Source: Candidatus Accumulibacter regalis
Lineage (GTDB): Bacteria; Pseudomonadota; Gammaproteobacteria; Burkholderiales; Rhodocyclaceae
Length of the DNA stretch: 64,000 nucleotides
Assembly: GCA_000585075.1 (NCBI GenBank)
Contig: JEMY01000038.1
Location: 1 to 64,000, forward strand
Direction: 5' to 3'
Within the stretch, counting starts at the first letter, position 1, and every line of letters begins with the position of its first letter. The notes under the pieces were generated by a model. The model had not been told where the DNA came from and did no database searches. It saw only the letters and a list, made by a program, of their open reading frames with translations. A program made the translations under genes and the position numbers. This document shows positions 43,658 through 48,257 of the stretch, piece after piece.

Positions 43658-44068
43658 GTGCTACGCGCCGCCAGCCATTTTCGCCTGCTGCTGGTCGCGG
43701 CGCTGCTCGCGCTGCTTGGCCTGCTCGGCCCGAGCGGCGCCACGCAGGCACGCGAAAACGCCCCCCTGGCGAGCATCACTCTGGCCGAGTTGCCCGCCGA
43801 AGCGCTGCAAACCTTGCGCCTGATCAAGCAAGGCGGACCATTCCCCTATCCGCACAAGGACGGCAGCAATTTCGGCAATTTCGAAAAGCACCTCCCCTTG
43901 CAGCCACGCGCCTACTATCGTGAATACACGGTGCCGACGCCAGGCAGCCGCGACCGCGGTGCGCGGCGCATCGTTGCCGGAGAGGGACGCGGCGGCGATG
44001 TCGCCACCTCCGGCGAGTATTACTACACCAGCGACCACTACCGCAGCTTCCGCCGCATACGCGAATAG
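43658..44068 (+). CDS. Secreted guanyl-specific ribonuclease, barnase/N1 family
   Basis: Protein of 136 residues with a signal peptide (about 8-30, end near TQA-RE). The RNase fold shows GPFPYPHKDGSNFGNFEKHLP and YREYTVPTPGSRDRGARRIV. Catalytic residues can be matched to barnase as Glu89 (YRE), an Arg at 103-104 and His127 (DHYRSF). Such enzymes cleave RNA after guanine. The cognate inhibitor barstar follows 12 bases downstream and would protect the cytoplasm. The GTG start is chosen as the first codon after the aspS stop giving a full signal peptide. It may be a nutritional or competitor-directed toxin. Confidence 0.88.
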   Translation: MLRAASHFRLLLVAALLALLGLLGPSGATQARENAPLASITLAELPAEALQTLRLIKQGGPFPYPHKDGSNFGNFEKHLPLQPRAYYREYTVPTPGSRDRGARRIVAGEGRGGDVATSGEYYYTSDHYRSFRRIRE

Positions 44069-44080
44069 CCACGACCGACC

Positions 44081-44524
44081 ATGACACAGAAAGACCTGCA
44101 AGCTCTGTTGGAGGATTCACGCCAGGCCGGCATCTACCGTCTTCCGCACGGTGATCGTCGGGCCCTGCGCGACGCTGCCGAAGCCGCCGGTTTCGCTTGT
44201 TTCGAAGCCGATCTCGGCGACTCGGACCAGATCCACGGGGTACTGACGCGGCTCGGCCGCCAGCTCGGCTTCCCCGAATGGTACGGCGGCAACTTCGACG
44301 CGCTGAAGGATTGCCTGAGCGATATCTCGTGGCGCGAAGAGTGCGGTTATCTGCTGATCCTGTCGCGAGCCGAAGCCCTGCAGTTCGCGAACGCGAACGC
44401 TTTTCGGACGCTCAACGAAGTCTTCGCCGCGGCAATCGACGAATGGCGTTCGCAGGGTGTTCCGATGTGGGTTTTCTACGACCTCGAGGCCGACGGGTTG
44501 GCAACACTTCCGACCTTGGAATGA
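44081..44524 (+). CDS. Barstar-family RNase inhibitor
   Basis: Cytoplasmic protein of 147 residues, longer than classical barstar (90) by an N-terminal extension. The inhibitory helix region FPEWYGGNFDALKDCLSDI carries Asp73 and Asp77, equivalent to barstar Asp35 and Asp39, which fill the RNase active site. MWVFYDLEADG lies near the end. It is paired with the preceding secreted RNase gene. The stop overlaps nudB as ATGA. Confidence 0.92.
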   Translation: MTQKDLQALLEDSRQAGIYRLPHGDRRALRDAAEAAGFACFEADLGDSDQIHGVLTRLGRQLGFPEWYGGNFDALKDCLSDISWREECGYLLILSRAEALQFANANAFRTLNEVFAAAIDEWRSQGVPMWVFYDLEADGLATLPTLE

Positions 44525-45444: not shown

Positions 45445-46026
45445 ATGAATCCGACAGCGAAACCCCTGGCCCTGGCCATCGCACTTGCCGGTGGACTGGC
45501 ACTGCCGATGGCCGCTGCGCACGCGGCCAACCCCCGTAACCCCTGCGCGCCGAAGTCGCGAACCCCCGTTGCAGCGAAGAACCCGTGCGCTGCCGGCAAG
45601 CCGAACGACGCTATTGACCCGAAACTGGTCACCCGCCCGAAGAACTACAGGCCGTACGCGGGCACTGCCGGCGAACTCAAGAAGGAAGGCCAGCGCCTGT
45701 GGTCCGACAGCAGCCTGTCGACCAATGGCATGTCCTGCAACACCTGCCATCAGTCGAATGGCGCTTTCCAGGACACTTTTGCGCAGCCCTATCCGCATGC
45801 GGTCCAGATGGCCAAAGATCGTGTCGGCATGAAGACCACGCACCTCGACGAAATGGTACAAATCTGCATGGTCGCTCCCATGGCTGCACGACCACTGGCC
45901 TGGAGTTCGCGGGAGCTGGCGGCTCTCGGTGCTTACGCGACAGAAATCCAGAAGAACTTCACGCCGGCCAAGGGAAAGACGCACAACCCCTGCGCGGCAA
46001 AAAATCCCTGTGCTGTAAAGAAATAG
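45445..46026 (+). CDS. Exported mono-haem cytochrome c with NPCAAK motifs
   Basis: Protein of 193 residues with a signal peptide ending near AHA-AN. One haem site, CNTCH (residues 98-102), lies in a cytochrome c domain. Met142 and Met146 (CMVAPMAARPL) are candidate sixth ligands. Unusually, short Cys motifs flank the domain: NPCAP and KNPCAAGK at residues 33-51, and NPCAAKNPCAVKK at the extreme C-terminus. These match the repeat unit of the next gene, which starts 48 bases downstream. The function is probably periplasmic electron transfer; the role of the extra cysteines is unknown. Confidence 0.82.
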   Translation: MNPTAKPLALAIALAGGLALPMAAAHAANPRNPCAPKSRTPVAAKNPCAAGKPNDAIDPKLVTRPKNYRPYAGTAGELKKEGQRLWSDSSLSTNGMSCNTCHQSNGAFQDTFAQPYPHAVQMAKDRVGMKTTHLDEMVQICMVAPMAARPLAWSSRELAALGAYATEIQKNFTPAKGKTHNPCAAKNPCAVKK

Positions 46027-46074
46027 CGGATGTTCCGCTAGATTGTGTAAGAAAAACCACCCAAGGAGACGCCA

Positions 46075-46365
46075 ATGAATACGAATACCCTGAAGCTTGC
46101 TCTCGGCACAGCCGCCCTTGCTCTCGCCGTTCCGTTTGCGCACGCGGCCAATCCCTGCGCCGCCAAGAATCCGTGTGCAGCGAAAAACCCCTGCGCAGGA
46201 AGATCCGCGGCGACCAAGATGGCCAATCCCTGTGCGGCAAAGGCGGCAAACCCCTGCGCGGCGAAGAACCCGTGCGCAACGAAAAATCCCTGTGCCGCGA
46301 AGAATCCTTGCGCGGCGAAGAACCCCTGCGCTGCCAAGAACCCTTGCGCAGCCAAGAAGATGTGA
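46075..46365 (+). CDS. Exported NPCAAK hexapeptide-repeat protein
   Basis: Protein of 96 residues with a clear signal peptide ending near AHA-AN. The mature part is almost entirely repeats of NPCAAK with small variations (NPCATK, NPCAGR), giving eleven cysteines, all in NPC and mostly spaced six residues apart. There are no acidic residues and no aromatic residues in the mature part. A folded domain is unlikely; metal binding, haem-independent thiol redox or covalent modification are possible. A strong AAGGAG site precedes the ATG. It lies between two cytochrome genes, the first with the same motif at both ends. Confidence 0.85.
   Translation: MNTNTLKLALGTAALALAVPFAHAANPCAAKNPCAAKNPCAGRSAATKMANPCAAKAANPCAAKNPCATKNPCAAKNPCAAKNPCAAKNPCAAKKM
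46147..46361 (+). repeat. 18-bp coding repeats of the NPCAAK protein
   Basis: About eleven degenerate copies of an 18-base unit (AACCCSTGCGCNGCSAAG) in frame. Synonymous third-position differences between copies suggest selection on the peptide rather than very recent slippage. Confidence 0.8.
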
Positions 46366-46378
46366 GCATCGCCCGAGC

Positions 46379-47674
46379 ATGTTCACCTCGGCAGTAACCA
46401 CGGGAAGGGTGCTCTTGGCCCTTCCCGTTTTGCTGTTCGTTCTCAACGCCTGTGACAGAAGCGAGACGGTGCGCTCACCAGCCCTCACAGAACGAACCCC
46501 GGTTACCGAATCCGCGCAGGCGATCAGCGCTTTTCTCGAGCGCCACTGGGTGCGTCCACTGCCCGCGCAGGGCAAGGCTCCCGAGCAGTTCAGCGCGCTC
46601 GAAGCGTCGCTGATGCCCAGCGATTGCGGTAGCTGCCACACCGAGCAATACCGGGACTGGCAGACAAGTTTGCACGCCCAGGCCATGGGGCCCGGCTTGA
46701 TGGGGCAGTTGCTGGCCATGGCGCCGACGGCGCGCGACGAACATCAGGATTGCCTCCGCTGCCACGCACCTCTGGCCGAACAGGCCAATGATCTGCTGGC
46801 TGAACTCGCGGCGGCCGAACACGCGTCAGCAGACGCGGCGCCTTCACCGGCAACCCCTTCTCTGCACCAGCAGGGGCTCGTCTGTGCCGCTTGTCATGTC
46901 CGGGCTCATCAACGTTCCGGACCTCCGCGGCGCGATGGAACGGCACCCGACGCGGTCGAGAGTGCTGCGTTGCCGCACGCCGGCTTCGTCGCCACGGACG
47001 CATTCGAAGATTCCCGCTTCTGCTCTGCCTGCCATCAGTTCCAGCCCGACGAATACGCGCTGAACGGCAAGCTGCTGGAGAACACCTACGACGAATGGAA
47101 AGTCTCGCGACACGCCCGGGAAGGCCGCAGCTGCCAATCGTGTCACATGCCCGAACGCCGACATCTGTGGCGAGGCATTCACGATCCGGAAATGGTCCGC
47201 GCTGCCGTCACCTTTTCAGTGGAAGGCGGCGAGTGGACCAACAATGTCATCCGCGCGGCTCTGAGCGTGCGCAACACCGGCGCTGGCCATTACCTGCCGA
47301 CCTATGTGACACCCAGGCTGGTCGCCGAGATCGAGCAGCTCGACGGCGACGGCCGCAGTCTGCCGGGGACACGCATCGAACACCTGATTCAACGCCTGGT
47401 CCCTCTCGATCTCGGCAGCGAAACCAGCGACACGCGCCTGGCGCCCGACGGCGAGCTGCGCCTGGTCTACGAGCGGCCCGTGCATCGAGCCGCCGTGGCA
47501 CTTGCCTACCGCTTGCGCGTCGAACCTGACGAGTTCTACGCCCGTTTCTACCGTGCGCTGCTGGCCGACGGCGCGGCAGAAAAAGGTCGGGAGCTCATCG
47601 CCCTGGCGCTCAAGCAAGCAGAATCGTCCTCTTTCCTGGCTTTTGAGGAGCGGCGAGTGCTGCCGCAGCGATGA
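46379..47674 (+). CDS. Penta-haem c-type cytochrome lipoprotein
   Basis: Protein of 431 residues. The signal peptide has a lipobox (LNAC, Cys25), suggesting a membrane-anchored lipoprotein. Five haem motifs are present: CGSCH (83-87), CLRCH (125-129), CAACH (169-173), CSACH (215-219) and CQSCH (252-256). Distal His candidates include SLHAQ and SRHAREG. The pattern resembles cytochrome c554-like multihaem proteins. The C-terminal 170 residues (from about AAVTFSVEGG) lack haem motifs and appear beta-rich, with NTGAGHYLPTY. The ATG lies 13 bases after the NPCAAK gene, so they are likely co-transcribed. Confidence 0.85.
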   Translation: MFTSAVTTGRVLLALPVLLFVLNACDRSETVRSPALTERTPVTESAQAISAFLERHWVRPLPAQGKAPEQFSALEASLMPSDCGSCHTEQYRDWQTSLHAQAMGPGLMGQLLAMAPTARDEHQDCLRCHAPLAEQANDLLAELAAAEHASADAAPSPATPSLHQQGLVCAACHVRAHQRSGPPRRDGTAPDAVESAALPHAGFVATDAFEDSRFCSACHQFQPDEYALNGKLLENTYDEWKVSRHAREGRSCQSCHMPERRHLWRGIHDPEMVRAAVTFSVEGGEWTNNVIRAALSVRNTGAGHYLPTYVTPRLVAEIEQLDGDGRSLPGTRIEHLIQRLVPLDLGSETSDTRLAPDGELRLVYERPVHRAAVALAYRLRVEPDEFYARFYRALLADGAAEKGRELIALALKQAESSSFLAFEERRVLPQR

Positions 47675-47786
47675 GCCCGCCGACCCCATCGCGGGACGTG
47701 CGCAAACACCGTCACACGTGGCTTGCGTCTTTTCACTGGTCCGCGCTTGGCGGCACAACCAGAAACGTTTCTGAGGAGAAATTGCC

Positions 47787-48257
47787 ATGACCATCGCAAA
47801 CAAGCTCTTAGTAACTCTCGTTCTCGCCGCCCCAGGGCTTGGCGGCAGCGCACTGGCCGCCGGCGGAAACGCCGCGGTCATCGTCGAACTGACGCAGGTC
47901 CCCTGCCAGTTCCTGGAGAGCGAGCAGGGCACCAACCACGGCTATCGCAGCACCAAGATCCAGGACTGCGAGGCCATCAATGCCAAGTCTGGCGCCAGCC
48001 GCGTGCAAACGGCGAAAACCCTGCAGCTCAAGCCGGGCAAGACGATTTTTCGCGTCACCAACAAGGACGTTCCCTACGAACTCGGCTTCTGGTTGCGTGG
48101 CGAAGGGATTGCAGGGCGGGTCACCCTGCCCAGTGTCTCCGGCGGTGGCCTGCTTGCAGGCAAGACGCAGGACTACGTGATCGATCTCCAGCCCGGCGAG
48201 TACGTCTATTCGTGCCCGCTGAACCCAACGCCCGACTATCGGCTGGTGGTGCACTGA
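47787..48257 (+). CDS. Exported cupredoxin-like protein
   Basis: Protein of 156 residues with a signal peptide ending near ALA-AG. The C-terminal two thirds look like a cupredoxin fold: LQLKPGKTIFRVTNKDVPYELGFWLRG, then DLQPGEYVYSCPLNPTPDYRLVVH. The Cys in YSCPLNPTPDY is where a type I copper Cys sits, but clear His and Met ligands at the usual positions are not evident, so copper binding is uncertain. Two further cysteines (VPCQF, QDCEA) may form a disulfide. GAGGAG precedes the ATG. It follows the multihaem cytochrome by 112 bases. Confidence 0.7.
   Translation: MTIANKLLVTLVLAAPGLGGSALAAGGNAAVIVELTQVPCQFLESEQGTNHGYRSTKIQDCEAINAKSGASRVQTAKTLQLKPGKTIFRVTNKDVPYELGFWLRGEGIAGRVTLPSVSGGGLLAGKTQDYVIDLQPGEYVYSCPLNPTPDYRLVVH

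Follow-up and report, generated by a model that had tools for sequence, protein, structure and literature searches.

Bacterial metallothioneins are small, cysteine-rich chains. The copper-buffering bufferin/MNIO (DUF692) systems combine exported precursors carrying cysteine motifs of several types with a gene for a dedicated metalloenzyme, and their clusters include sigma factors (PMC12452194). The stretch of Candidatus Accumulibacter regalis DNA analysed here (contig JEMY01000038.1, positions 1 to 64,000; 64,000 nucleotides, hereafter the window) encodes an exported NPCAAK-repeat peptide of 96 amino acids at 46075–46365 on the + strand, set within a cluster of cytochrome genes. Proteins with such repeats prove to be widespread, and exported cysteine-repeat proteins are, with high probability, often linked to an unstudied protein family, DUF6969, which may act upon them as an enzyme or a metal loader.

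Exported cysteine-repeat proteins and DUF6969

A scan of genome contigs for NPCAAK relatives gave at least 591 pattern matches, of which at least 474 encode a relative, so the search across genomes suggested in a preliminary description of this DNA reveals no local oddity; the NPC finding is real and larger than that description saw. The best 80 loci, chosen for their repeats, were compared with 60 control pieces, and counts out of 80 or 60 below refer to these. By record title the 80 loci come from beta-, gamma-, alpha- and deltaproteobacteria, Rokuibacteriota, Nitrospinota, Magnetococcales and cyanobacteria, and the nearest named relatives among the matches listed are Candidatus Accumulibacter records with 85–94% identity. 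Some relatives are small exported peptides; others form tails, carried by mono-haem cytochromes of SoxA/TsdA type, by cytochrome P460 and by further proteins. Among 59 repeat peptides the commonest cysteine spacing is six and the commonest linker AAK. No paper mentioning NPCAAK or DUF6969 was found in the open-access library searched, and searches on NPCAA and on the neighbouring families returned nothing judged relevant.

The peptide of the window has ten NPC units and ten cysteines, one fewer than had been counted previously, behind a Sec-type N terminus; its export signal and those of its relatives were assessed visually and with a crude rule for hydrophobicity. Its gene is preceded by AAGGAG, and about six of the ten units keep an 18-base register at the end. 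Pairwise codon differences between the 14 NPC units of the peptide and the adjoining cytochrome comprise 269 synonymous and 71 non-synonymous changes; because the differences are mostly synonymous, it is the protein repeat that is conserved and not a DNA repeat. This synonymous excess, together with the spread over phyla, rules out local chance or artefact. AlphaFold2 gave no fold for the peptide, with a mean predicted local distance difference test (pLDDT) score of 44.5, and the Pfam scan returned only Cornifin and AtDEF-like matches, both below cut-off, and no metallothionein at E ≤ 1.

When the neighbouring genes were clustered, a protein of about 250 amino acids emerged from 46 loci, all but one of which belong to the best 80. 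This protein is DUF6969 (PF22308; cut-off 27), to which two members score 271 and 279 bits, and by profile it is present in 54 of the 80 NPC loci. The window's genome (G000) has a single copy, at G000:C37:42216–42824 (287.7 bits, cut-off 27), and it was invisible to the preliminary description because it lies on a contig other than that of the cluster. That description had raised the idea of a shared modifying enzyme, for which DUF6969 now supplies a candidate, the modification itself being a proposal. Within the genus the repeat protein occurs in 7 of 28 genomes and DUF6969 in 8, including all 7 (Fisher p = 6.8e-6, uncorrected for kinship); the eighth, G002, which has DUF6969 without a repeat protein, is an assembly 88% complete. 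Physical linkage does not by itself account for this co-occurrence, because in G000 the two genes occupy separate contigs and in G026 they are some 520 kb from each other.

A census with no selection for repeats found DUF6969 in 20 of 398 genomes from the phylum and in 30 of 369 from the class, giving 50 loci; the window's genome is in both samples, and one genome carries two DUF6969 copies. An open reading frame (ORF) for an exported or anchored cysteine-repeat protein, on the same strand and no more than 1.2 kb upstream of DUF6969, was found in 36 of the 50 loci as compared with 3 of 1775 control ORFs, which were open frames of 200 codons or more, in whichever frame, rather than annotated genes, taken from 60 20-kb pieces at hand-picked positions in DUF6969-positive genomes. 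Two of the three control matches are the same ORF region (L220). Inspection by eye placed a repeat gene nearby in 40 loci, adding L120 and L127 (repeat gene downstream), L171 (contig end) and L192 (a short anchored PC repeat), and widening the distance to about 2 kb gave 43 of 50, with L121, L122 and L124 at about 1.7 kb. An earlier repeat detector had found 27 of 50 loci (L129 spuriously) and had also responded in 18 of 183 control windows, where four of the hits were genuine NPC genes; the later test is the one quoted because the earlier controls were mostly the ends of NPC-selected loci. We regard a link between DUF6969 and exported cysteine-repeat proteins as highly probable.

Many of the repeats found in the census differ from NPCAAK. 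They include the variants NPCGPK, NPCAPSARGG and KPCAAK, membrane-anchored proteins that combine a DHTRH-like stretch with SPC[GS]L ends, and repeats of CCAAEG, CGAK, GCC and CAAT, which have no proline. Beyond the census loci, APCAAG repeats are paired with DUF6969 in Sinorhizobium. The repeat motif type follows the DUF6969 clade (NPCAAK, NPCGPK, NPCAPSARGG, SPC[GS]L, APCAAG, GCC and others). In a quick tree of 53 DUF6969 sequences, with motif labels assigned by eye, eight motif-less rows uncounted and several long end branches, six motif groups need five changes, which is the minimum, as compared with a mean of 24.3 after shuffling. The window genome's copy is placed among the NPC group, whose uniting branch has weak support (26). 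A separate clade (L137, most of L182–L192, and L194) has tiny membrane-anchored partners, in which a DHTRH-like segment recurs and PC[GS]L-type units number from two to nine. On the Sinorhizobium meliloti SM11 plasmid (L259), which has a repeat gene upstream, the DUF6969 frame looks shifted part-way and the match falls in two pieces; in other S. meliloti records and in L261 it is in one piece. A single query of phage records gave no DUF6969 match.

Seven residues of DUF6969 (His84, His86, His95, His97, His130, Glu92, and Asp74) are invariant in 40 sequences. The AlphaFold2 model (pLDDT 94.1, predicted template modelling score 0.91) places the invariant histidines on three strands or at their ends, and in this model the five may share one metal site. 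A Foldseek search of the model against the PDB produced no hit at E ≤ 0.001 (best 0.84), profile comparison gave no significant match, and DUF6969 has no visible export signal. The natural reading of the family is a metal-dependent enzyme, with a metal loader or a chaperone as alternatives.

The window cluster and its neighbours

The cluster consists of four genes on the + strand, located where the preliminary description had placed them. The repeat peptide lies between an exported mono-haem cytochrome of SoxA/TsdA type (45445–46026; 193 amino acids, one CxxCH), which carries two NPC units on the N-terminal and two on the C-terminal side of its haem domain, and a penta-haem lipoprotein cytochrome (46379–47674; 431 amino acids, five CxxCH, LNAC lipobox by eye), with a small exported protein (47787–48257; 156 amino acids) following. 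Inside the start of the penta-haem gene is a terminator-like 11-bp hairpin with a T-rich tail (46400–46428, + strand), a match to the consensus alone, in a region where five such sites were found and 4.1 were expected from shuffles; it could mark attenuation after the repeat gene, which could then be more strongly expressed than the cytochrome. A short way upstream of the cluster (43661–44524, + strand) are genes for a barnase-type ribonuclease (PF00545, 84.5 bits) and, immediately after it, a barstar inhibitor (80.7 bits).

The mono-haem cytochrome matches the SoxA-TsdA_cyt-c domain (PF21342) with 33.5 bits (cut-off 27) and, in the region of the haem motif only, CCP_MauG (PF03150) with 25.8 bits (cut-off 25.6); it is far below the cut-off of the SoxA equivalog TIGR04484 (25.3 versus 110). 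In an alignment of 51 tailed cytochromes the haem CxxCH and one downstream cysteine are invariant (51/51), and NPC-type cysteines precede the domain in 98% and follow it in 92% of the sequences. The profile of these proteins aligns with SoxA (1h31) over 92 positions (E = 1.5e-4), with the invariant cysteine on a SoxA cysteine; two di-haem proteins score slightly higher, yet match just 35–36 positions around the haem motif. From these alignments the downstream cysteine is a probable haem ligand. Among the best 80 loci, an NPC-tailed cytochrome of this kind is present in 46, a separate repeat ORF in 46 and both in 20, so the co-occurrence of repeat gene and cytochrome on which the preliminary description had staked its proposal does recur in other genomes. 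The tailed-cytochrome frame of L164 looks short. Cytochrome P460 is a further host of such tails (34.0 and 60.7 bits for two proteins, with a third at 22.3, below the cut-off of 27), as are a YHS-like protein (29.2 bits, just under the cut-off of 30.3) and proteins without a Pfam match.

The penta-haem cytochrome resembles C554 and ExtKL proteins, with 29.8 bits to PF13435 (cut-off 20.8) and 75.9 bits to NF040886 (ExtKL), below its cut-off of 250. A multihaem cytochrome homologue accompanies 24 of the 80 NPC loci and a homologue of the small exported protein 17 of them, each absent from the 60 control pieces. The latter protein had been labelled cupredoxin-like. Type-1 copper sites of cupredoxins are formed by His-Cys-His(-Met) ligands; in 18 homologues the three cysteines (Cys40, Cys61, and Cys143 in the window) are invariant and no histidine or methionine is, leaving both a copper site and a canonical cupredoxin unsupported. 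Pfam returned nothing for the protein at E ≤ 1, and in a PDB profile search no match improved on E = 0.45, its match to plastocyanin being 12.4 bits (cut-off 87.85) and that of a relative to Cupredoxin_1 11.8 bits (cut-off 27).

Other genes near the repeats were surveyed by homology and by a family scan that covered 138 of 145 eligible neighbour proteins of 100–700 amino acids, with 25 of 106 Pfam families listed. YeeE-type transporters (Sulf_transp, 24 loci), DUF302 (21), ECF sigma factors (19), DUF3179 (16), MerA-like (12) and FGE-like proteins (9) were found around the 80 loci and in none of the 60 controls. A Mer, Ars, MNIO or CopA homologue is present in 15 of 80 loci versus 2 of 60 controls (p = 0.004), and a TlpA-type homologue in 6 versus 1, which is not significant. 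Several assignments exceed their model cut-offs: MerR of L036 (161.1 bits, cut-off 150.85), MerT of L056 (202.7, cut-off 150), an arsenite methyltransferase (354.8, cut-off 263) and two ArsS proteins (467.4 and 454.7, cut-off 300); of the arsenate-reductase-like neighbours, two are below the model cut-offs and a third has no match. These neighbours hint at soft-metal or redox stress, with no one metal fixed. MerR and MerA-like homologues lie near the repeat cluster in L036, L056 and L065, with MerT in L056 and L065, and in L163 and L164 an ArsM-like gene and ArsS adjoin the NPC peptide and multihaem cytochrome (by models for L163, by homology for L164). In genome G001 (L116, 365–6183), downstream of the repeat and multihaem genes and in the same orientation, lie bufABC-like genes (DUF2282 84.7, MNIO_BufB 375.9, DUF2063 90.5 bits); this run also holds a DUF302 gene and a gene that looks YeeE-like by eye and has no match in the homology search.

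Proposed mechanism and competing explanations

We propose that cells export NPCAAK proteins as thiol polymers, either on their own or attached to haem proteins as tails, and that in many genomes repeat proteins and DUF6969 would form a two-part system. DUF6969 would be cytoplasmic and would act on the repeat cysteines before Sec export, as a metal-dependent enzyme or as a metal loader; the finished chain would then be exported and in the periplasm bind soft metals or metalloids such as copper, mercury or arsenic, or alternatively engage the attached cytochrome and the multihaem lipoprotein in thiol/haem redox reactions. The location of DUF6969, its action on cysteines, its nature as an enzyme and what the product binds are all putative. 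Taken as a whole, with DUF6969 as either enzyme or loader, this mechanism has in our estimate a little under an even chance of being correct. That DUF6969 modifies the repeat proteins covalently is a tentative proposal, and just as tentatively the family may constitute a new, MNIO-independent class of metalloenzyme modifying exported cysteine repeats of at least six motif types, with haem proteins whose thiol tails are modified and bind metal among its products.

Several observations weigh against this interpretation. DUF6969 is absent from 10 of the 17 phylum genomes (among 398) that are positive for the pattern NPCxxKNPC (present in 7 of 17; Fisher p = 3.8e-6), making it a frequent and not a necessary companion. 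Two of these ten genomes are 57–67% complete and one 76%, and each of the four DUF6969-negative loci viewed (L161, L163, L164, and L165) encodes a multihaem cytochrome close to an NPC protein, with the tailed cytochrome also present in L161 and L163. Conversely, 7 of the 50 census loci lack a nearby repeat gene (L108, which belongs to the window's genome, where the pair is unlinked, L119, L126 at a contig end, L129, L173, L174, and L193), and the exact pattern is absent from 13 of the 20 DUF6969-positive phylum genomes, of which 11 hold a variant cysteine-repeat gene nearby. On plasmid AZO_p5 of Azospirillum lipoferum (L260) DUF6969 stands behind an Mla-type lipid ABC transporter operon, and a cysteine-repeat gene was not found in the 10.7 kb. 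The census detector was tuned after some loci had been viewed and demands a hydrophobic N terminus, and the case/control contrast for neighbours is inflated by queries drawn from the case loci. Metal genes occur in a minority of loci, with MerT, ArsC, ArsM, ArsS, CopA, MNIO and TlpA singly not significant, and within the genus the bufferin family DUF2282 shows no association with the repeat (1 of 7 repeat-positive versus 9 of 21 other genomes). Finally, plain co-inheritance would also make the motif follow the tree.

The alternative that survives best is an unmodified, metallothionein-like sponge, in which free thiols bind soft metals and DUF6969 is a chaperone keeping the chain reduced or soluble, or a metal donor, with no covalent change. 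A cysteine polymer without a confident predicted fold, the ten pattern-positive genomes that do without DUF6969 and the Mer, Ars, MNIO and CopA homologues would all suit it; however, the five invariant histidines with aspartate and glutamate resemble a metal or catalytic site, and so tight a correspondence with the repeat motif would not be required of a general chaperone. We consider it unlikely.

The SoxA/TsdA domain, with a cysteine at the ligand position in every tailed cytochrome aligned, and the YeeE-type neighbours raise the further option of a sulfur carrier, in which the cytochrome loads sulfane sulfur or thiosulfate onto the repeat cysteines and a YeeE/TsuA-family transporter feeds it. 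SoxAX is thought to load SoxY likewise. According to PMC4423706 the mechanism of TsdA, a member of the SoxA family, involves a cysteine S-thiosulfonate, which favours this option, and the enzyme uses Arg109, Arg119, and Ser127 near Cys123. Unlike TsdA, 40 tailed-cytochrome sequences have no invariant arginine after the haem motif, and the best match to SoxA 1h31 covers residues 58–143 and not the catalytic domain given there as 177–282, although the numbering may differ (PMC4423706). Moreover, tails occur on cytochrome P460 in other lineages, and SoxY is present in none of the 7 repeat-positive and in 12 of the 21 repeat-negative genus genomes, for which reason a partner of the Sox pathway was rejected. 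A sulfur carrier is thus distinctly improbable.

The ECF sigma factors, one of which (L033) is followed by a zf-HC2 gene, would fit a sacrificial scavenger of oxidants: thiols pooled in the periplasm, which an ECF sigma/zinc-finger anti-sigma pair would induce and the cytochromes would re-reduce. The non-significant TlpA count points the same way. Hypochlorite-resistant Azospira reportedly has a methionine-rich peptide likened to an oxidant scavenger. Such a role leaves DUF6969 and the clade-specific motifs unexplained, and we give it very little credence. Least credible of all is that NPC repeats are docking or cross-linking modules joining peptide and cytochromes in one complex via disulfides or a bridging metal: the window and 20 of the 80 loci have both, but 52 loci have just one of them and 8, which carry other NPC proteins, have neither.

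If the proposed action of DUF6969 on cysteine repeats is correct, the family would acquire a testable function and would solve the problem addressed by bufferins in a second, unrelated way; many unannotated cysteine-repeat substrates would be indicated, and such repeats would be graftable onto cytochromes. A direct test is possible in Sinorhizobium, a genus used in the laboratory, which carries the DUF6969/repeat pair.

Comparison with known systems

The preliminary description had seen no DUF692-type enzyme nearby, and this holds: neither MNIO nor its DUF2063-type partner is present among the eight window proteins scanned. An MNIO homologue occurs in 2 of the 80 NPC loci, with the DUF2063-type partner in the same two, and an MNIO-type system was rejected for the window cluster. 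The main text of PMC12452194 contains no occurrence of NPC, DUF6969 or cytochrome. Like the bufferin/MNIO systems, the NPC system has exported cysteine-motif precursors of several motif types, a dedicated partner gene, presumed to encode a metalloenzyme, and sigma factors; unlike them, it involves a different Pfam family, and NPC tails are also found on haem proteins.

The tailed cytochrome shares with the cysteine-ligated cytochromes SoxA and TsdA the haem domain and the position of the ligand cysteine, whereas it has one haem with no second, NPC units at both ends and, among 40 sequences, no invariant arginine after the haem motif. The peptide is small and cysteine-rich, as are bacterial metallothioneins, but it is exported and built on a Pro-Cys repeat with cysteines mostly every six residues. 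With Buf_EGKCG proteins and oxazolins the NPCAAK proteins have in common export, a cysteine repeat and variable length. They differ in their motif and in that AlphaFold2 gives NPCAAK no confident fold, in contrast to the beta-helix model presented for EGKCG repeats in PMC12452194.

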